From assembly GCA_950295325.1 (NCBI GenBank), contig OX485807.1, positions 5,148,501 to 5,212,500 of the forward strand: a stretch of DNA of 64,000 nucleotides, read 5' to 3'. A program made the translations under genes and the position numbers. Shown here piece by piece: positions 20,261 to 34,800 of this stretch. The stretch's first letter is position 1; every line of letters begins with the position of its first letter. Under the pieces are notes generated by a model. That model was not told the DNA's origin, searched no databases, and saw only the letters and a list, made by a program, of their open reading frames with translations. This DNA comes from Polytrichum commune (Eukaryota; Streptophyta; Polytrichopsida; Polytrichales; Polytrichaceae).

Positions 20261-20272
20261 TCGCATGCAACA
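20261..20272. repeat. 5' target-site duplication of the LINE
   Basis: tcgcatgcaaca, identical to 31502-31513. The pair brackets the whole retrotransposon and fixes both ends. Confidence 0.8.
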
Positions 20273-20303
20273 GAGTGGTGCACAAGGGTGTGACGGCGGG
20301 ACG

Positions 20304-23300
20304 ATGAGGAGCGGCACAAGCAGACCCAGGAAGGGGGCACCCGGGAGGAAAACGAGTCGGAGCTCAACGCCGACCCAACACACAAGATCAACAACAACAA
20401 GAAACGAAGTCCCTGCATATCGGCTCTACCAGCCGCACCCGGCAGCCGAACCACACAACCCAGACACCTACGGAGCGGTAGCAGCAAGAGAAGCCCTCGC
20501 AGCAGCAGAAGACAGACACCACCGGCTGACACCACCGGCCGCAACCAACCCCAGCAGACACAGATGCAAGTGGAGGAGCAGAAACTTAGATCCAGATCCA
20601 GAAGAGAAAGAAGACGGGAGTGAGACATCACCAACATTCATCAACAACAAAAGGGTTACACCCTTCATTACAATATGGGCGCTTATAAGCACCCTAACCC
20701 TGTGTACCTACACACCTCACAAAGCTCCCTCACAAAAGCTCCCTTCACCACTCTATCTATCAAGATACCACTCCCACTCAAAGCTGCCACCCAATACCTA
20801 CTCACTAAAATGCCACACCTCCACAATAACACCGAAAGAAAACCCACCAGAGGGCCCCCCATCAAACTACTACTCCCCACCACCTCTAACCCTACACCAC
20901 CAGCAAGAACCATCTCCAAACTCGGATCGCACTCCACAAACGCCAATGCCGCCGCCGCCGCCCACACCACACAAACCCACACACCCAATGGTTAGAAACA
21001 CCACTTGCACCTATCAAACACCTACCAACACCAAAAATCACCCAAATACCCAAAACACACTAGATCCAAACTTACCTTCAAGAAAAGCACATCGCCGCTC
21101 CAAGATCCTCCCCACAAAGCAAGATCAGCCACCTCCTTGTCAGAAAACCACCAAAAAACACATAAAACATAAGCAACACACTGTCGCACACATGAGTGCA
21201 TCACCCATAACCCCAAAAACCGCCCACCCAACAAACAATCCAACCCACACAATACATGCAACACCCCACACTCAACCAAAATACACCTCACTCCCCCATA
21301 TTAGATCTGACAATACAACCCGCCACCCTAAGAATGCAGAAACCCACAAAAACAACCTCACATACCCACTCACTCACCCAAAAACAACAGTCCGCCACCC
21401 ACCTCTCTCGCTACACACACACACTCAAATACCCTCATCCCGCACACATTCCCACACTCCTCCCTCTCTCACCTTGCACACTTCTATCCCCCTCACCTCT
21501 CACACATCTCTCCCCCACTCTCACACATCTCTCCCCCCCACCTCTCACACATCTCTCCCCACCACCTCTCACACCTCTCCCACCTCCCTCTCAGACACAA
21601 TGACGCCCAGCACCGAAGCCCACAACCCAGCAACCGCAGATCAAGAAACAGCTCCCCGAACGCGCGGAGGATCGAACATCCAGGCAGTTCTTGCGCGAAG
21701 GCACCCAGGGTCCGGTAGCAGAATGAGCAACAGCAGCCACAAAAGCAGCGCCGAAGGCAGAATGGAGGCTAGAAAGAGCGGAGGGCAGCCCAACACTAGC
21801 ACAGGGACGGGAGCGGGCGGCATCAGCAAGCTCTACGCCGGTGCGGGTGTGGGAGCGGGAGCGGGAGGTGACAGGGAGCCAGCCAACGGCAGGGACGGAG
21901 GTGGCACAAAAACCGAGGTCGGGACCAGTCGAAAACCCAACAGCTCCAACAGTAACCACCATAGCCTCACCAGCACACGAAGTGCAGGCAGAAGAAGGGC
22001 ACTTATTCAAACTTACAGCGACGATGATGAGGAGTTCGCCATACCGCCCAACCAACCAACACTTTTCAAGGGGAAGACCACACCCTATCATGATGCCGAC
22101 ATCGACATGCAGCTCGACAATGTCACACCCGAGCATGGGGGAAGCTCCCTCCACATCTCAACCTCAAACGACGAGTACTTGGCCGCCGCCCGCCAAGCCG
22201 CCATGTCGCTCGACCAAATGGACATCATCAACCTTGACGAGGCGACACCTCCAAACAACCCACACAAAAGCCCTAGGCAAGAGTCTGTAAAAGACACTCA
22301 AAGCGCCAAACGTAGGAGTGAAGTAGGGGGTCATGCACTCAACTCCGACGCAATCAAACTTCCAAACATGCGCACCAAAGAGGCAATTCCAAGCATTGAC
22401 ATTGTGTCACACATGTGGTTAGGCTTCTCAATCCACGAGGCCATCGCTACACAAAGGGGTAAGGGAATCATCCATGAAACTCGTACCCACGCGGAATTTG
22501 AGAAACTAGGAACCCCCACAAATGAAGTCTTAGAGTTCAAAACCATTAGACGTGCATTTCCGAGAGTCCCACAAATATGTTATCCAAACGAGAGGCCGGA
22601 TGCAGTACCCGGCAACCACCTCCACTTCACACAAATCCCAAGGCAAGAACGAGTGGACCCCACCACCGGACTTTCCGAGGGCTTCCACATCACTATCCGT
22701 TTCGACTACGGCTTCAAAGGCATGAGCAAACACGAAGCACGAGGAGCATGCGTGGAATGACTAAGACAAATGGACATCCCACTGGGCTCAACTTACTCCA
22801 ACCCAATCGACATTGGGACCAACGCCGTCACCAAGCATTGGGCGGGTTTCATTAAGGTACATCTAAAAAACCCACAACAAGATGGCATAGCACTACTTAG
22901 AGGCCATAGAGCATTTGTTATGACAATGGAGGATGGTGAAAGGGTGATAGGTAAAGTAGAAAAGGGATATGAATTAGTTACTAAAGCTCGCAACCTAAGG
23001 TTACACCTCAAAGGCGAAACCCTTCGCCATGAACATGCATCCACCATCTTTGAGTCACTAGTGCAAGAGAGTTACTATAATGGTCACCAACACGAGTTTA
23101 TGGGTTTTGCCAAACCGGAACTAGATAAAAACTTTGCTTTTCTTACTCTCACCACGGAGGAGGCTAGAGATTTAGTACTCAAGGAAGGAATTGTCTACAA
23201 CAACGAGAGGTTACAAGTGAGCATCACCCGCGATAGGAATGGCGGCAATCCATCCGAACTCCGAATTAGCACAACTCTAGTGGCTAATAACCTCCCACAA

Positions 23301-24292
23301 CGCGAGACACCAACCGCCATCATCAAGGCCATCAAGCAAATTTTTGGAGAAGACAATATCGTAGACATTAGCTTTGGCAACACGAATTAAGGCACCACCA
23401 ACAAGCAAGCGGGATGGTGCCACATTCAATGTCTTAACGCCGCGGTCTACACGGCATGGATACATAAATCCACTACATTCTAGGACGACACATCGACTTC
23501 ATTCCGCACCATAGGAGCATCGACGGAACGGCCCCCAACAAGACGGCGATCCGACTAGCCCAAGCTCCCGTTAGAGAAGTCATTGCGGATAAAATCCAAG
23601 CTATGGGTAACGCCACTAACCTCAACCCACTCATCACCGAGAAGCATCTCACAAAGACCATGAAGGAATTTGAGGATAAAGTAGATGAGAAGTTTAGCTC
23701 CCTCACTACCACCATAAACAACCACACGGATCGGACACATAAAGAGCACACATTCTTGTTCCTACTCCAAGTACTCTCTCACTTTATGTATCTCCCTACA
23801 TATCCCTCCTATAGCAAAAAATACACTAACACACTAAAACCTTTGTATTGGCACAACAAAAACACCCACACCAAGCACCACCAACTACAAACCGGAAAAC
23901 CTACAAGAGAGCTACCCCCACACACATTACCAATCCCCCATACACATTCACACTACCACATGAGAAAAATAATAACACTAAGTCTCACCCTTCTAATATG
24001 GATAAGCCACCTCCCCGTCACCAACCAAGATAATCTTACATATCATAACAAATATGACCCCCATACTACTCCACCAAAAAAATTCCCATTTAAAATGTAT
24101 CATACAACCTTCACACATAACAAGACCTACAACACAATCCCCCCTATAAGCCAATACAACATACACCCACAACTCACAAATCCACCACCACTTCCACACA
24201 CCAAGACCACACACATAAATATAACACACACGACCCCCCAAAATGCCAAGCCCAAGCCCAACACAAAACAAACACACCAATGTCACCCATAA
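20304..24292 (+). pseudogene. LINE ORF1: RNA-binding-type protein, broken
   Basis: Two Gly/Arg/Ser-rich, GC-richer segments (about 20304-20640 and 21600-22100) flank an A/C-rich, low-complexity stretch. A more conserved part follows (about 22330-23760). Residues around STTLVANNLPQRETPTAII and AGWCHIQCLNAAVYTAW resemble an RRM with a beta-alpha-beta pattern, as in ORF1 proteins of L1-like elements. A short possible coiled coil follows (TKTMKEFEDKVDEKFSSLTT). One frame carries an in-frame TGA at 22758 and then ends at 23390; the reading resumes one frame over from about 23462. The first ATG at 20265 lies inside the target duplication, so the ATG at 20304 is the more likely element-encoded start. 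The last 170 codons are low-complexity and may not be true coding sequence. Confidence 0.65.
21400..21600 (+). repeat. CT/CA-rich simple repeat inside LINE ORF1
   Basis: Repeats built on ctctcacacatctctcccc, ending in a pyrimidine tract and cag just before an ATG at 21600. The tract looks like the 3' end of an intron or an untranslated spacer within the LINE. Confidence 0.6.
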
Positions 24293-27200
24293 CTACCACA
24301 AACCTCATAGGCCACATACAACACATTACACACCTACACCTTAAAACCCCAAAAAGAATAAAAATACATTATTACAGTTGGAATAACTCCACACTCATCA
24401 TCCTAAGTGGAGATGTAAAACCCAACCCGGGCCCACTCTCACACATCCTTGACAACCTTCCTCGCGAACTCATACAACGCCAAAAGCAATATTTCATACC
24501 AAACACAATAACCCTTAAACCTCACTATATCCACATAGCAGAATTATTCAAACCCTACCTAACTCTCCCGACATATAGCACCCAAAATCAAGATTTACCC
24601 CACCTACGCAACCAAAGTTTGGCACATGCAACATTCCCCATCCACTTCCAAATCTACGCATTCATCATAACCTATAACCCAATCCCACAAACATGCAACC
24701 AATTAATGGCCGAAAACATAGATTAAAATTGCCTTACCATCCTACAAAGACTCCAACAACTACCAACTAGCACATATCTAAGAACATACCCAATCACCAC
24801 CCAACCCTCTCATAACAAAGTACCAACCACCATAACACAAGCATATACACACATTAATGAGAAAATAGCCAAAGGAGAAATACTAACCATAACCAATCTA
24901 CAAACAGAACTACCCAACCTCCCTCACAAAATAACCCAAAAACTAATCAAATGTACACAACCAGTAAGAGGATACACCCCCAATACAAACCCTAGCTCCA
25001 CTCACCATATACAAACTAATAACACTAGTGGAGCCAACCCCCAAGCCATTACCCTAAGAATCATCACCTGGAATACTGGATGCATCAGTTCTAGCCTACC
25101 TGGCATACAAGAACTCACACGGACATTACATACAGATCCACACATAATACTCATACATGAAACCAAATTACACAAACTTAAATCCACAACCTACATCGAC
25201 CGCAAATTTCAAAACTATAAAATCATTTATAACAACTCCCACAATGAAACAAAAACACAAAATAGATACTCAGGACCTACCCAAGCTCGAGGCGGCATAT
25301 TGGCCATGATACCCAAAAACATCTACACAAACGAAAATATTACCAAAATACCCACCCCTAGCCCCATATCACCATACCTCCAAATCATAGTAATTAATAA
25401 CAAACCACTCACACCAATAACTATCATAAATATGTATATGCCCACCCACCCTCAAGATACACACCTCATAAGTGAGATACAAAACCAAATCCAACTCCTA
25501 ATCACACAACACCCTAACCACCAAATTATCCTAGCCGGAGACTTCAACCGGGATATACTACTTAAAGGAAGAACATCCAACGGGTCACACCTCCCCCCTA
25601 ACCAAAATGACCTCGAATGGGCCCACTTCACAAATAACATAGGCCTCACCACAATCAACAACCAACACAGCCACACAAGACAAGGCGGATTAAACTACAC
25701 TTCAACAAGCCACATAGATGGCTTTTACTCCAACCTCCCCAACCATAGTCACCTAACTTGCTACACACTCGACAACCTTAACCAAAATTCCGACCACTAC
25801 CCGGTCCAATTAAACCTACACCCGAATAGCATAATCATCAAAGAACCACACCCCCCACACAAAAAACCCACGTATCACATACCCCATCCACCCCGCCAAC
25901 TTACAAAAACTCCAAACAATCTTCATGGAAACACAAAGCCTAGCAATAGCCACACTAACAACCACACTACAAAACGAACAACTCACCCACATACAATGGG
26001 AAAACGCACAAAACTCATTTCAAGAAATCATTAATTCCCTTAGTACGTGCATTGAGCAAACATGTATGACACACCCCAAACCCCCATTACCCAATAGAGT
26101 AAAAACCCAAGGTGGATTCCTCCCTAGGACACAACATAAACTATGGAAACGTCAACTAAAAATACACCACGGAGCCCGCAAAGCCATCCACGCCGCATGT
26201 CAAAACCCCCACTCACACCTTCACACCCATCCGAACATCAAAGCCTTACAACTCATAAGTAACACTAATATACCACCCCTCCCCACAAACCCCAAAGACC
26301 TCACAATATGGATAGAGGAAATAGCCAATATAGGTAAAAAAAACTAAAGATGAAGCCCACAAAATCACCACCAGACAAACCGCAATAAATTGCAAAACTG
26401 CCATTACAAAATACAGAGCACTATTAAACATAAAACCCAAAACGATACATAAAAAGATATTTCACCCCACAACTGCTAACTCCCTGGACTGCCTAAAAAC
26501 CCAACAAGGTCATATTCTCACAAACCCCAATGATATAGCCAAAGAGATACATCATACACAACAACTATCCTTCCAAAGACAAGCACCCCTATGCGAAGAC
26601 ACCACGGATCACCCAACTACATGCACTTGCGCAGTACGTAAATATCCATGGCATACGCACAAAGGCATCATACTAGAAAAACGAGGCCCCCCAAACACGC
26701 AAATATACAACCACTTCACCCGAGAAACATACGACACATGTATTCGAAGACTAACACGTGGAAAAACACCCGGACCGGATAACATCCCCAACGACGTAAT
26801 TAAAATTTTACCATCACCTTGGCACGATTTACTCTTCTTATTTTTCAAACAATGTTACAAACAAAAAGAAATACCAACCCACTGGAAACATAGCAAAACC
26901 ATCCTATTGCACAAAAAAGACGATCCAACCTATATCACCAACTACCGCCCAATCGCCCTAGCCAATACAATATACAAACTCTATACAAGCACCCTCACAA
27001 CACTACTTACGAGTTACGGAGAACAACATAGAATATTACATTTTAGCCAAGAGGGATTTAGGCCGCAACGAAACACCTCAAGACAAATTCAAATGATCAT
27101 TGCCACACTCGAAGACGCAAGACTTACCAACAAGGACATATACCTAACCTACATAGATTTCCGTAATGCCTTTGGATCCATTGACCACGCAAGGCTACTA

Positions 27201-30200
27201 GCTCTCATGGAAGACCTAGGATACCCTATAGACGCAATCGGCATTGTTGGTAATATATATAAAAATTCAACCACCTCCTTTACCGGAAACCACTTCGGTT
27301 CAACACCACCAATAGAAATTAGCCGAGGGACGATCCAAGGGGACACCCTTAGTCCATATTTATTTATCATATTCATTGAACCACTTTTAAGATGGTTAGA
27401 AAAAAATAACCTAGGATACCATTTCAATACGTCATCTACCACATGCACCACAATCGCATACGCGGATGATTTGGCAATAACTACCGACAACATATACAAC
27501 CATAAATAAACAAACTACAAAAATTCGCCGAATGGTCACACATGGACCTAAATCTCTCGAAATGCGCAATAACGGGATGCCCTAACCAATCGAAACTCAA
27601 ACCAAACACCTTCAAAGCATTCATCCAATCACAAAACATCACCTACAAATCCCAAAACTTCCCAACCCTCACACAAAACGAACCCTACACATACCTAGGG
27701 ATACACCTAATACCGTCACTGAAATGGAACCTACAAAAAGAAATCACACTCCAAAAGACCAAGCAACAAAGCAAACTATTAACCCTCTCCCCGGCAAGCC
27801 TCAAACAAAAAATCAAAATCTTAAATACAGTCATCAAACCTCGCATTGCATACGCATATTACGCCGTCCCTTTCTCTAAACCCGACATCAAAAAATTGGA
27901 CAAAATCATTTGCAAACTAACTAAAGATATATGTCACATACCCAAGAGCTCCGCCAATATCCTCACACAACTCTCACACAAAAACTTTGGCATAAATGTA
28001 ACATCACTCCTCCCAGACTACATACATTGTATTGGACAACAACTTATACAAGCCCTTAACGACCCCGGCCAATTAGGTAATATATACCAAGGACTGGCCA
28101 AGTATATATCGGCCAAGTACGGAGGCTCACTTCACCTACCCAAACTAAAACAACAAGCATGCACAAGGTCACCAATAGCTAGAACATTATTTCTTCTAGA
28201 AAGAAAATACGAAATACACGTCACCACCGCAATCCGTGCATTCCCCATCAAAAACACCCCCCTTGAAGAAATATGGAAAAACAACCCAACCTATACTAGC
28301 CTTACGGACGACTCAAAAAAGAAAACCCAAACATACCTAGACAAACTATATACATACGGCATCACCACAATAACACAAATACAAAACAAAGATACTAAGG
28401 CCATATTAACTCCAGACGAATTCAAGACCATATATAGACACACACCAAGAACCATCAAAGAGGCACTCCAACAAGCCAAAACATTATTCCCGAACCCACC
28501 ACCACTCCCCACACCCCAAAGAACCCACCCCGCACTAGAACAACCAATACCCTCTAACAACACCCAACACCCAAATATACACACACAACACAACCTTGGG
28601 AGAGCAATACACACCATAACCCAAATAAAAACCACTACCAGGAAAGATAAATGGGGGGCCCAAACTATCCGAAGAACATATCTATGCCAATGGCAATCCA
28701 CACAAGGTTCCACACAACAATGGCGCCCAGAAGAAGTCCTACTACACCCCGACAACATATTGCTCGACCACAACCTACTTCTCATAACACAACACCAACG
28801 TAAAATATTAGAACAAAAAACCACCCAACAATACGCCGACCTCCTAAAATCCTCCCAATCAAAAGACAAACGATTTATACACCCCCCTCTCAAAATAACC
28901 AACCTCACAACATCCACACAAGAGTGCAACCCGGACAAAGATATAATTACCAACAAACCAACCATACAAATACATGCCAAAATATCTAACATCTACGATC
29001 AAAAAGGGAATTATATAACCTCCCTAAACACCGAAAGACTACAATGGCTATGGAACCGCTTCTGTGACAACCACCTCCCACACCTCGCCAACTTTCTAAA
29101 ACCCCCACCACAAACTTTGAAACCGAAATACTATGGCTTATCCAACGATATATAACCATACTCCCCAAGAAAAAACCCAAAAACATACTACCAAACAACC
29201 TACACCACACCCTACACCCAGACATCACTAAACTACTAATAGAATCATACAAAATTACGCACTCATACTACTCTTCCCCCCTCACATGCCCTATGCAACT
29301 TACACAGTACAATTCACCACATAGCCGAGACATACTATTTGGCTCCATGGGACACGCACAGTCCTCCCGCTGGAGAGGAATAGGCCTAGCATTCCCCACG
29401 GACCACAACACAACTCTAGAAGCTATTCATTGGGCAAGAATGGCTGCCAAAGAAGACACACATACGCTCACCATTCTAATAGTTAGCCACAAAGACTGGA
29501 CAACACAACCACTACCACTTAATATTAAGGAGGACATCCACACGATTGCAACTATACCACCACACACCATACAATACGCCCCTACACCGGAATGGCCAAA
29601 ATACTACCAATACGTGGAACCATCGCTCACATCCATAATTTGCGTATCCAACCCCGCACATCTATCAATGAATATACAACCCCCACAAGAACTACAAAAT
29701 GTCCTAAAGAAAACACTTAACATACACATAGACACTCATCCCATCAAACCCAACACAAAACCCTATAAAGTCAAATTCTCCAATTCATGGAACAATGCAC
29801 CCAAAGCAATCCCTCCGCCAATGCATTCAAACCTCAACACACCACCTCTCCCTATTGAACTTAATCACATCCACCCCCTTAAATTCCAACCACAAAAATG
29901 TACATACACGGACGGATCATTTATCCCACCCACCAAAAATTCCGAAGGACAAATAGAAGGTAACACAGCAGGATCAGGAGTATATAGTCCCAACAACAAC
30001 ACCCACATAGCAGAAAGACTACCCGGATACCAAAACATACTAAGAGCAGAACTCAATGCAATACTCATAGCCATCGAAAACATACAAAATACCCAAACAG
30101 AAACACATATATTTACAGACAGCCTTAATAGCATATTCCTAATTAACAACCATATACAACACCCCACATCACAACATCACCACCCAGATAAATTACTCAT

Positions 30201-31336
30201 AGCGGCCATCATCCGACAAATATATTGGACACCACATAAAGTACACATACATAAGGTACGAGCACACACAGGCATCATCGGAAACGAAATAGCCGACGCA
30301 CTAGCCAATGAAGGGAACCTCAAGGAAAAACCATCCCCCACACCCCACACCCCACATACACATAGCACACTCAACTCCTTATTGGTTAGCAAGTTGCCCG
30401 ACAGCCACGCATGACGGAGCCATACGCAACCTAAACACATTCATAACAAAAGAACACGAATCTCGAGAAACGCAAACAGCCAAACATAAATTTCCATACA
30501 TCGACAAATGGCTCTCAAATGAGCAAATAAACCAAAAACTCTCTAACCATTTTTGGACAAACGACAAAGTAAGCGACGCACAAATTACCCAAACACTAAA
30601 ATTCAGATACGCCCAATACATGGGCAACCATAGGAAAAACATTTTTTGGCCTCTCACACACCAAAACCCCAACTGCACATTATGCCACAAAAATGACAGA
30701 GATACATGGCCCCACCTACTATCCACATGCGAACACCCATACCTAAAAGGATTAAGAATTGCACGACACAACAACGCGGTACACCTCATCACCCAAACAC
30801 TACAAGCCAACAAAAACACCCGATACTTCACACTAACCAATGCAGGAAAAATTAACAACACTATACCAGAGCAAACAATCCCGGACTGGCTCATTAAATG
30901 CTCATGTCAACAAATGCCATGCAATTGTCAAGCTAAATTAAGACCGGACATCCTATGCATAATTGGTGCTCCTAACCAAACACAAACACCCATACTACCC
31001 TCCCCAAAACACACAATCCAATTTATTGAATTTACATACTGCCATGACAGATTCCCAGAACAAGCAATCACCCGAAAACACACGAAATATGACCCACTAA
31101 TCAACACCATACAAAACAATGGATGGAAGACCAACCCTATTATTACCATCACAGCTGGAGTTAGAGGTGCCATCCACGAACACTCCATTGAAAAACTAAC
31201 CGAATTAAAAATCCCTAAGTCAAACATCAAACTCCTTATGAAACATTTACACCAAAATGCCATCAAATATCTCACATACTTGGTCCTAAATAAAAGGAAA
31301 CTAGATAACAAACAAGTACCCATCCCCCCGCCTTAA
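24280..31336 (+). pseudogene. LINE ORF2: APE, RT, RNase H, zinc knuckle and restriction-like endonuclease, broken
   Basis: ATG at 24280 overlaps the ORF1 stop by 13 bases (ATGTCACCCATAA). Domains: APE endonuclease 25057-25836 (ITWNTG, ILIHETKL, RGGI, LAGDFN, HIDGF, SDHYPV); RT about 26700-27500 (TPGPDNIPNDVIK, NYRPIALAN, FSQEGFRPQRNT, YIDFRNAFGSIDH, IQGDTLSPYLF, YADD at 27459-27470); thumb and connection to about 29280; RNase H about 29895-30320 (YTDGS, RAELNAIL, FTDSLNS, HKVRAHTGIIGNEIADALA); CCHC about 30672-30730 (C-x2-C-x9-H-x4-C); restriction-like endonuclease about 30742-31230 (RIARHN, RPDILCI, FIEFTYCHD, RKHTKY). The APE catalytic set and RNase H acidic residues are present. One in-frame stop (24724) and frameshifts near 25860, 26342, 27505, 29115 and 30380 interrupt it. 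Confidence 0.85.
24409..24435 (+). other. 2A-like ribosome-skipping motif at the ORF2 N-terminus
   Basis: Residues 44-52 of ORF2 read GDVKPNPGP, preceded by STLIILS. The 2A consensus is D-x-E-x-N-P-G-P with an upstream Leu/Ile-rich helix, and skipping occurs between the last Gly and Pro. Here Lys replaces the usual Glu. Motifs of this kind, often with His at that place, are known near the start of ORF2 in several animal and trypanosome non-LTR retrotransposons. If active it would release a roughly 51-residue leader and start the mature ORF2 protein with Pro. Confidence 0.75.
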
Positions 31337-31501
31337 AATTATTACATATACCTAATAGTACATCAGAGCCCACCTCCCCACAGAGGCATAACACCTTATA
31401 TTGCATCATGGTACGCTATGATCAATACAAGGTTAACGGGCTCGCTTTCATGCCGGTATTAAAATACGGGCGTTATTTTTTCTTTTTTCTTTTTCTTTTC
31501 T
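31337..31501 (+). other. LINE 3' UTR and pyrimidine-rich tail
   Basis: Short 3' UTR after the ORF2 stop, ending in a run of T5-6C units (about 31472-31501) right against the target-site duplication. The sense-strand tail is T/C-rich instead of A-rich. Confidence 0.7.
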
Positions 31502-31513
31502 TCGCATGCAACA
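31502..31513. repeat. 3' target-site duplication of the LINE
   Basis: tcgcatgcaaca, identical to 20261-20272 and lying immediately after the T/C tail. Confidence 0.8.
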
Positions 31514-32464
31514 ACTTCTTAATCACAATGAAACCTCTAATTTCATTTATCAATGCTCATTTCACATTCACCCAATCACATCAAACTACATCATTGAATC
31601 AATGCCTACCAAATACAAAGTTGCAATTTTAATATTTTGCTGTCTCTATGATTCACAAGAGTTGAATGAGTGTCGAATGAATAATTAGCTAAATGTTGGG
31701 TTAGCACTCAAAAGATATTCATGAACCCTGACGGATGTGTGTTTATCAACGCTTAGGATTAAACGCCCGACGCTTGCATTTTGAGATGTTTATTTCTAGA
31801 AGTAGCGTAGTATCATTGTGCTTGCGTTTACACAGACATCCGGTAATCCCTCTATGAAAACTAATTATGTTTGCAGCCATTCGGGCTGCTGTGATCAGCT
31901 TTGTAATTGCAACTGTAAAGTCTCCATCCATTGAGAATGGAAACAAATCATAAGAACATCAAAATACTACACCAAGTTCTTTTGCAGCAAAGTAAAAAGG
32001 CAGTAAAAAATGCTCAGACAAAATAATTGATACATACGGACTATGGACAAATCATAACAAGATTTTGTAGAGAACCTATATAGAAACACAAAGTAATATA
32101 ATGGATGTCTTTGATAGAGCGACATAGATCACATGTCACAATCTTGTGGTTAGATGAACATCCACCATGAACAAAACTCTATTACCAAGTATTGAACGTA
32201 AGTGAGATGGTTGATTTTCTCTCTACACCCATTTCTTGTAGGATATGCGACATGCAATTAATGCAAAATGATTCGCAAATTCTAATTGTGCCCAAACCAT
32301 TTGCCTCATAATTTTCGGATAGCAAATGAAGATCTTATTCATTATCAAAGTGAAGATTCAAAGTGCTCATTAAGAAAATGACAAACTTCTAGCATATGGG
32401 GTATGAATCATTTGCACTTTTGCATTCCACAAAATTGGAACTATGTAAGAAGAAATGTAAGAAA
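31514..32464. other. Intergenic between the LINE and the LRR array
   Basis: AT-rich, no gene or clear repeat seen. It probably contains the 3' flank of the minus-strand resistance-type gene. Confidence 0.4.
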
Positions 32465-33047
32465 TGAGGATTCCAAGTCCCTCGGGTAATGTTGTCAAGC
32501 TTGAACATCCCTCCAAATTAAGCTCTGTCAAAGAAGTGAGGTTTCCAAGTCCCTCTGTTAATGTTGTCAAGCTTGAACAACCCCCCAATTTAAGCTATGT
32601 GAAAGAAGTGAGGTTTCCAAGTCCCTTAGGTAATGTTGTCAAACTTGAACATCCCTCCAATGTAAGGTTTGTCAAAGAAGTGAGGTTCCAAGTCCCTCTG
32701 GTAATGTTGTCATGCTTGAACATCCCTCCAATTTAAGCTCTGTCAAAGAAGTGAGGTTTCCAAGTCCCTTTGCTAATGTTGTCAAGCTTGAACATCCCTC
32801 CAATTTAAGCTCTACCAAAGAAGTCAGGTTTCCAACTCCCTCTAGTAATGTTCTCAAGCTTGAGCATGTTGACAAATAAACCTCCATCAAAGAAGTGAGG
32901 TTTCCAACTCTCTCGGGTAATGTTGTCAAGCTTGAACATCTCTACAATTTAAGCTTTGTAAAGGAAATTAGGTTTCCAAGTCCCTCTAGTAATATTGTCA
33001 AGCTTGAACATCCCTCCAATTCAAGCCATCTCAAAGAAGTGAGGTTT
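32465..33047 (-). pseudogene. Decayed LRR tail downstream of the receptor's stop
   Basis: LRR units continue out of frame beyond the receptor's stop. After the one-base insertion near 33070 the next frame reads LRR units but meets a stop in place of the usual Glu codon near 32946; a further one-base loss lies near 32690. The ancestral protein therefore probably had seven or eight more repeats, unless these are assembly errors in the array. Confidence 0.65.
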
Positions 33048-34800
33048 TCAAGTCCCTCGGGTAATGTTGTCAAAGCTTGAACAACCCCCCAATTTAAGCA
33101 TTGTCAAAGAAATGAGGTTTCCAAGTCCCTCTGGTAATGTTGTCAAGCTTGAACATCCCTCCAATTTAAGTGTCGTCAAAGAAGTGAGGTTTCCAAGTCC
33201 CTCTGGTAATGTTGTCAAGCTTGAACATCCCTCCAATTTAAGCGTCGTCAAAGAAGTGAGGTTTCCAAGTCCCTTTGGTAATGTTGTCAAGCTTGAACAA
33301 CCCCCCAATTTAAGCGTCGTCAAAGAAGTGAAGTTTCCAAGTCCCTCGGGTAATGTTGTCAAGCTTGAACATCCCCCTAATTCAAGCCATCTCAAAGGAA
33401 TGAGGTTTCCAAGTCCCTCGGGTAATATTGTCAAGCTTGAACAACCCCCCAATTCAAGCATCGTCAAAGAAGTGAGGTTTCCAAGTCCCTCGGGTAATGT
33501 TGTCAAGCTTAAACATCTCGTCAAATTAAGTTCCGTCAAAGAAGTGAGGTTTCCAAGTCCCTCGGGTAATGTTGTCAAGCTTGAACATCCCTCCAATTGA
33601 AGCGATCTCAAAGAGGTGAGGTTTCCAAGTCCCTCGGGTAATGTTGTCAAGCTTGAACATCCCTCCAATTTAAGCGTTGTCAAAGAGGTGAGGTTTCCAA
33701 GTCCCTCTGGTAATGTTGTCAAGCTTGAACAACCCTCCAATTTAAGCGTTGTCAAAGAGGTGAGGTTTCCAAGTCCCTCTGGTAATGTTGTCAAGCTTGA
33801 ACAACCCCCCAATTTAAGCGTTGTCAAAGAAGTGAAGTTTCCAAGTCCCTCGGGTAATGTTGTCAAGCTTGAACATCCCTCCAATTCAAGGCATTCCAAA
33901 GAAGTGAGGTTTCCAAGTCCCTCGAGTAATGTTGTCAAGCTTGAACAACCCCCCAATTTAAGCATCGTCAAAGAAGTGAGGTTTCCAAGTCCCTCGGGTA
34001 ATGTTGTCAAGCTTGAACATCCCTCCAATTCAAGGCATTCCAAACAAGTGAGGTTTCCAAGTCCCTCTGTTAATGTTGTCAAGCTTGAGCATGTCGACAA
34101 ATAAATAATCATCAAAGAAGTGAGGTTTCCAAGTCCCTCTGGTAATGTTGTCAAGCTTGAGCATGTCGACAAACAAAGCATCATCAAAGAAGTGAGATTT
34201 CCAAGTCCCTCGGGTAATGTTGTCAAGCTTGAACATCCCTCCAATTCAAGCCATCTCAAAGAAGTGAGGTTTCCAAGTCCCTCGGGTAATGTTGTCAAGC
34301 TTGAACAACCCCCCAATTTAAACTCTGTCAAAGAAGTGAGGTTTCCAAGTCCCTCTAGTAATGTTGTCAAGTTTGAACAACCCACCAATTTAAGCGTCGT
34401 TAAGGAAGTGAGGTTTCTAAGTCCCTCGGGTAATGTTGTCAAGCTTGAACATCCCTCCAATGTAAGGTTTGTCAAAGAAGTGAGGTTTCCAAGTCCCTCG
34501 GGTAATGTTGTCAAGCTTGAACATCCCTCCAATGTAAGGTTTGTCAAAGAAGTGAGGTTTCCAAGTCCCTCGGGTAATGTTGTCAAGCTTGAACAACCCC
34601 CCAATTTAAGCGTCGTCAAAGAAGTGAGGTTTCCAAGTCCCTCGGGTAATGTTGTTAAGCTTGAACATCCCTCCAATGTAAGGTTTGTCAAAGAAGTGAA
34701 GTTTCCAAGTCCCTCGGGTAATGTTGTCAATCTCCAACATTGCGACAAATTAAGGGCCGTCAATGAAGTGAGGTTTCCAAGTCCCTCATGCAATGCTTTG
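32465..34800. repeat. 72-bp tandem array (about 32 copies) encoding LRR units
   Basis: A 72-bp unit, tracts such as aagtccctcgggtaatgttg tcaagcttgaac, repeats about 32 times in direct order. On the minus strand each unit encodes one 24-residue leucine-rich repeat. Copies differ mainly in a short variable window between the conserved blocks (for example atccctccaatttaagcgtc against aaccccccaatttaag). The array continues about 580 bp past the stop of the long frame, where units carry indels and stops. Confidence 0.95.

Follow-up and report, generated by a model that had tools for sequence, protein, structure and literature searches.

The 64,000-nucleotide stretch of DNA analysed here (the window) covers positions 5148501-5212500 of contig 5 of a 408 Mb genome that has seven large scaffolds. 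On the plus strand, which carries all features of the element given below, we identified an 11,229 bp, decayed copy of a long interspersed nuclear element (LINE) at 20273-31501. The limits are those of the initial annotation, and were accepted because TCGCATGCAACA is duplicated directly outside both ends, as a 12 bp target-site duplication at 20261-20272 that is matched exactly at 31502-31513. We consider, with a probability of about 0.85, that this is a dead copy of a large and recently active family of non-long terminal repeat retrotransposons that carries two nucleases and resides in a moss-like land plant.

The copy shares 95.3% identity with a C7 sibling (L049) over 24169-31485. The remains of the first open reading frame (ORF1; 20304-24289) are split by a TGA stop at 22758 and by later frame changes and had no match in Pfam, and the corresponding frame is open over 1305 amino acids in L049. 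ORF2 is interrupted by a TAA stop at 24724, and its frame shifts near 26.03-26.33, 27.51, 29.1 and 30.3-30.4 kb. The motifs named in the initial annotation were all found in the window at the places given there, but they are spread over more than one open reading frame. The leader suggested at the same time is represented by a 2A-like (StopGo) sequence at 24367-24435, which ends in GDVKPNPGP. This motif is in the ORF2 frame in four of five long relatives. L049, the fifth, has it slightly upstream and in a different frame, and for this sibling, with 98% identity at the C-terminus, simple decay is possible, as are reinitiation and 2A separation.

Downstream of the 2A-like sequence, an apurinic/apyrimidinic endonuclease (APE)-type domain was identified at 25057-25836 (PF14529, 1.5e-8, over the cut-off; PF03372, 3.4e-5, just under it). 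The motif set already recognised there is complete: RIITWN (25057), HETKL (25156), GDFNRD (25537), IDGFY (25714) and NSDHYP (25786). The catalytic motifs TWN, QETK, GDFN, IDG and SDH are kept in all five long copies, in each of which Q replaces the H of HETKL. The reverse transcriptase (RT; 26334-27800, limits approximate; PF00078, 3.2e-26) contains PGPD, NYRPIAL, GTIQGD and AYADD and has a frame change at about 27506. It is followed by a domain overlooked in the initial annotation, a PCIF1-like domain (cap N6,2'-O-dimethyladenosine (m6Am) methyltransferase family) at approximately 29101-29600, and by RNase H at 29896-30315 (PF00075, 8.3e-16; YTDGSF at 29905).

The C-terminal region appears to be a restriction-like endonuclease (RLE), as judged from its motifs and from its register with R2Bm. 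A CCHC zinc knuckle of the form C-x2-C-x9-H-x4-C (30674-30730) precedes the core (30755-31160), in which RIARHN (30755), RPDILCI (30941), FIEFTYCHD (FIEFTY at 31022) and RKHTKY (31073) stand after RNase H and the knuckle in the RLE-type order, as previously described. Within these, RH is at 30764, PD at 30944, the E of FIEFTY at 31028 and KxxKY at 31076-31090. The features listed for RLE LINEs are CCHC, RH, PD, D/E and KX2KY, the first K of the last being catalytic (PMC5678591), and the catalytic residues given for R2Bm are D996, D1009 and K1026 (PMC10499050). In an alignment of 19 rows (the window copy and 18 relatives picked for open frames, 38-98% identical to it), the knuckle and the R, H, D, E, K, K and Y are invariant. 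The P of PD and the N of RHN are each present in 18 rows, as is the ordered signature RH..PD..[DE]..KxxKY. This signature arose in 23 of 200,000 shuffles of the window C-terminus and in 15 of 200,000 of that of L051, in none of 200,000 for either when the CCHC was included, and in none of 412 other open segments of at least 100 amino acids in the sequence examined; the spacings had been widened to fit the family, and the shuffle and segment counts are therefore flattering. In profile searches of PDB (177,635 sequences, E<=10), each of three profile versions reached R2Bm and no other protein (E 1.1 with six rows, 2 with 19 rows and 0.97 with a 195-column core), in register over HxxxxC and RHN. 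These E-values are weak, although R2Bm is the protein that would be expected. Between RHN and PD, the window copy (30899-30928) and its relatives have an invariant CxCx4CxC, for which the spacing of R2Bm leaves no room. This is possibly a second zinc site.

The RT also falls on the side of R2. Compared with solved structures, the family RT profile scored best with R2 proteins (5.7e-36, 1.5e-32 and 2.3e-32), then with L1 (5.6e-22) and R2Bm (1.1e-21). An unrooted tree was made from 18 rows, namely six dual-nuclease RTs (the window row partial), three of R2, eight L1-type from the same genome and one human L1. It separates the dual-nuclease and R2 rows from plant L1 and human L1 with support of 99/99, and the dual-nuclease group has 100/100. 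The RT thus lies outside the plant L1s sampled (nine L1-type rows in all), and in this respect the initial annotation is supported. The tree has no rows for Dualen, RTE, I, Tad or CR1, 9nl3 was left out as a near-copy of R2Tg, and the branches of human L1 and R2Bm are long.

Genome searches identified two groups of copies, for which all counts are lower bounds. Group A, found with the last 343 residues (7100 candidates), has at least 118 copies including that of the window, with identities of 76-100%; six of these copies are in frames of 2038-2638 amino acids, one of them with an internal TAG. Group B has at least 150 copies by a PF12237 search (697 candidates), six of these in frames of 2107-2924 amino acids, and at least 150 of 2040 candidates at 82-100% identity with a group B PCIF1-like query. 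Open frames of 2305-2924 amino acids are found in some of the copies. The loci fetched from the PF12237 search comprise three long ones (L050, L051 and L053) and shorter ones (L054-L065), to which the siblings L076 and L077 were added later. All 12 of the shorter loci match ORF2 downstream of the RT, the match in L057 stopping before the RLE. The five long copies (L049-L053) include two of group A, 72% identical to each other, and three of group B, 57-87% identical to each other, with 42-44% identity between the groups. All five carry APE, RT, PCIF1-like domain, RNase H, CCHC knuckle and the C-terminal RLE signature. The initial proposal, made from the window copy, of one LINE that encodes an APE together with a C-terminus of RLE type is supported. 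We infer that the family moved recently because sibling pairs with 99.6% identity sit in different flanks (in group B, two pairs over 2266 and 3828 nt; in group A, L028/L037 over 2663 nt). Scans of IMG/VR with the RLE, RT and PCIF1 alignments, from which records near the genome of the window were possibly excluded, gave no relatives.

Both the APE and the RLE are under purifying selection, with ratios of nonsynonymous to synonymous substitution rates (dN/dS) of 0.07-0.18 and 0.09-0.12, respectively, in two pairs. For L051/L053 the values are 0.07 for APE, 0.06 for RT, 0.11 for PCIF1, 0.05 for RNase H and 0.09 for RLE (dS 0.40-0.61). For L049/L052 they are 0.18, 0.06, 0.14, 0.07 and 0.12 in the same order (dS 1.0-1.9). 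Values are looser upstream of the 2A motif (0.37-0.52) and intermediate between 2A and APE (0.15-0.43).

PF12237 is the sole Pfam family matched (E<=0.01) by all 11 aligned copies of the PCIF1-like domain, with a best value of 6.5e-14. For L050 and L051 the match exceeds the curated cut-off, and for L052 and the window (1.8e-6 over 29101-29367) it falls short of it. The top PDB match of the profile is PCIF1 itself (E 0.01; 0.069 with five rows). The catalytic motif of PCIF1, NPPF, is absent from all 11 aligned copies, so that the domain more likely binds RNA, perhaps capped RNA, than methylates it. The dN/dS values of 0.11 and 0.14 indicate that the domain is retained. No report of a PCIF1-like domain in any LINE was found in the literature searched.

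The element ends in a structured 3' untranslated region (UTR; 31366-31473), in which an outer stem holding two hairpins is followed by a terminal hairpin, and in a (TTTTC)n-type tail without poly(A) (31474-31501). In group A, this arrangement occupies a stretch of 107-109 nt after ORF2. In the group A alignment (17 of 21 distinct sequences), 98.4% of cells are paired and two-sided changes occur in 13 of 34 pairs; none of 500 shuffles equalled it on four of five measures, and 124 of 500 equalled it on the measure of further pair types. Group B has a different sequence with a similar arrangement and two-sided changes in three of 39 pairs (seven of eight sequences found by pattern). The terminal hairpins of both groups have a common TTCACGCCGG-like start. 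The tails are (TTTTC)n in group A and (TATC)n in group B. Duplications of 12, 14 and 13 bp flank the three copies for which both ends were read. Among 29 loci with short flanks, a scan for duplications gave one 10-bp candidate (L018), L017 lacks a recognisable 3' end, and no candidate was obtained for the remaining 27, which is expected wherever the 5' end is beyond the stretch examined. Inspection by eye of 29 distinct 3' flanks of group A copies showed no site specificity. In the 3' UTRs of group B (L050, L051, L053-L056 and L058-L065), an antisense tRNA box-B-like stretch lies about 150-180 nt before the terminal structure, with GRATCGAAC exact in 11 of 14 loci and a near-match in the other three. 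No tRNA genes were found in the window or in the seven loci tried with ARAGORN, and Rfam gave no match in the window, L049, L050, L051 or L053.

Several of these results count against our interpretation of the element. The R2Bm match (E about 1) covers 40 residues from the end of the CCHC to RHN and leaves the catalytic D, E and K outside. No Pfam nuclease model was convincing for the C-terminus (the best, an arenavirus cap-snatching model, reached E 0.12 in one of 19 rows), and an AlphaFold prediction for the window C-terminus from the single sequence was uninformative (mean predicted local distance difference test score 32.6, predicted template modelling score 0.18). The motifs, their order, their conservation and the R2Bm register favour the putative assignment to the PD-(D/E)XK nucleases, which neither Pfam nor the predicted fold confirms. 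One refuting condition given with the initial annotation, a C-terminal part that matches no PD-(D/E)XK profile or fold, is therefore not clearly escaped. The knuckle has a spacing of x9 against x7-8 in RLE LINEs, the PD-to-E gap is 26 residues against 12 in R2Bm, and the GXW motif of RLE LINEs was not found by eye, there being only an invariant GW at 31121. In the RT comparison, R2Bm scored no better than L1, and only the other R2 proteins were clearly higher. Among the selection estimates, dS exceeds 1 in L049/L052 and is saturated in two further pairs, L050/L051 (dN/dS 0.09-0.14 where computable) and L051/L052 (0.11-0.34, with 0.34 for RNase H, 0.43 for the linker and 0.18 for RLE; APE not computable). 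The three group B copies tested showed no duplication, their 5' ends probably being beyond the stretch examined, and at their edges the duplications may have T or TTC in common with the tail.

In an alternative reading, the C-terminal domain would be derived from an RLE but would act as a non-cutting DNA-binding or structural module, leaving the APE alone to nick. APE LINEs have duplications similar to those of 12-14 bp seen here, and the extra inserted CxCx4CxC is also in line with a module of this kind. A precedent is the RLE-like domain of Prp8, which has the RT-linker-RLE arrangement of RLE LINEs and a role in splicing (PMC5678591). However, D, E, both K and Y are kept in every row, although some of them should have been lost had the domain died, and the dN/dS of the RLE is similar to that of the other enzymes of ORF2; we consider a non-cutting domain unlikely. 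Even less probable is a C-terminus made up of an unrelated CCHC and some other domain, with coincidental RLE motifs, which would make the element an APE LINE with RNase H. The lack of profile or fold support speaks for coincidence, as does an R2Bm match near E 1, since chance matches below E 1 occur (a fucosidase at 0.24, with another profile). Against it are the ordered signature in 18 rows, its absence with the CCHC from all shuffles (with spacings widened after the fact), the finding that the sole PDB protein reached, in register, is itself an RLE LINE, and the grouping of the RT with RLE-bearing R2. Chance motifs were rejected mainly on conservation across the 19 rows. Finally, a plant L1 of the usual kind bearing an unusual extension at its C-terminus would account for the APE and for the RNase H, which is reported in plant L1 (PMC4640811). 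This is contradicted, within the RTs sampled, by the 99/99 support that sets the six dual-nuclease rows apart from human L1 and from the eight L1-type RTs found in this genome, and also by the structured UTR without a poly(A) tail, and we regard it as very improbable.

For a LINE with two active nucleases, we envisage the following cycle. The 2A-like sequence would free the ORF2 protein from its leader, and the protein would recognise its own RNA by binding the 3'-terminal hairpins. A nick made in the first strand by one nuclease would release a 3' end that could pair with the U-rich or UAUC tail, priming target-primed reverse transcription. RNase H would then remove the RNA template, and a cut in the second strand about 10-14 bp away would yield the duplication. 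With one nuclease per strand, the RLE, which would be coupled to the RT via the CCHC linker as in R2, would most likely act first, although this division of labour between APE and RLE is a guess. The PCIF1-like part may lie near the cap while the 3' hairpins are bound by the RT and the linker, so that a capped messenger would be held at two ends. The full model, of land-plant LINEs with one nuclease per strand in which a PCIF1-like module for cap recognition was captured and placed between RT and RNase H, and in which the ORF2 protein holds both mRNA ends, is tentative and on the doubtful side.

The base composition of the window element and of both whole siblings is strand-asymmetric (A 0.37-0.38, C 0.31-0.34, G 0.13, T 0.17-0.18). 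Other frames in the window include an adaptin, an NB-ARC, a kinase, a leucine-rich repeat and a Mg-protoporphyrin methyltransferase, those for kinase, NB-ARC and leucine-rich repeats lying side by side. From these frames, and from the seven large scaffolds, a number that fits Polytrichaceae, we deduce that the host is a green plant and probably a land plant of the moss kind. At 32459-34787, a 72-bp repeat is present in about 32 copies, and their minus-strand reading gives leucine-rich repeats that adjoin the NB-ARC and kinase frames. This looks like a resistance gene of the kinase, nucleotide-binding site and leucine-rich repeat type, situated shortly downstream of the inserted element.

The view that APE LINEs originated when the APE replaced the RLE draws on where Dualen is positioned (PMC4640811). 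A young, high-copy family in a land plant, in which both nuclease regions are under selection, would make it testable which nuclease cuts which strand, and the covarying 3' UTR offers itself as a candidate for the template-recognition element. In the literature searched, the combination of APE and RLE is otherwise reported mainly from green algae, and the PCIF1-like module is an unexpected extra.

The family shares APE, RT and RNase H with plant L1, as well as staggered duplications, but differs in having an RT outside the sampled L1 group, an RLE-like C-terminus and no poly(A). With R2 and other RLE LINEs (R4, NeSL, CRE, Hero and Utopia) it has in common an RT on the R2 side, a CCHC followed by RH, PD, D/E and KX2KY, and RNA structure in the 3' UTR. 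Unlike them, it has an APE, RNase H, a PCIF1-like part and a separate ORF1, along with a longer PD-E spacing, the extra CxCx4CxC and no site specificity by eye. The likeness to PCIF1 consists of PF12237 over a segment ending in FGS, whereas the domain of this family is inside a LINE ORF2 and is without NPPF.

The closest counterpart in architecture is Dualen/RandI, in which an APE is described together with a PD-(D/E)XK-like endonuclease (PMC3636483). It is recorded from green algae, Chlamydomonas and others (PMC4438587 Table 3; PMC8226300), and, by repeat annotation in 2025, from cryptophytes (PMC12747079). No report of a land-plant Dualen was found in the literature searched, and Repbase or further papers could hold one. 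The initial annotation was mistaken in treating RNase H as an addition, because Dualen/RandI is already listed with RNase H (PMC4640811). Its statement that Dualen has an OTU protease found no supporting text, and no OTU protease was matched in Pfam by three whole ORF2 or by the ORF1 and ORF2 pieces of the window. The family shares with Dualen/RandI the APE, RNase H and, as a putative domain judged here from motifs, the PD-(D/E)XK-like endonuclease, as well as short tandem 3' repeats without poly(A), which are (ATT)n or (CTATTT)n in Dualen/RandI (PMC3747384 Table 3) and (TTTTC)n or (TATC)n here. It differs in its host, probably a moss-like land plant, and it carries a PCIF1-like domain and a 2A-like leader, for which the literature searched gave no Dualen record either way. 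Judged by its architecture, the family probably works like Dualen and is a candidate member of that clade.

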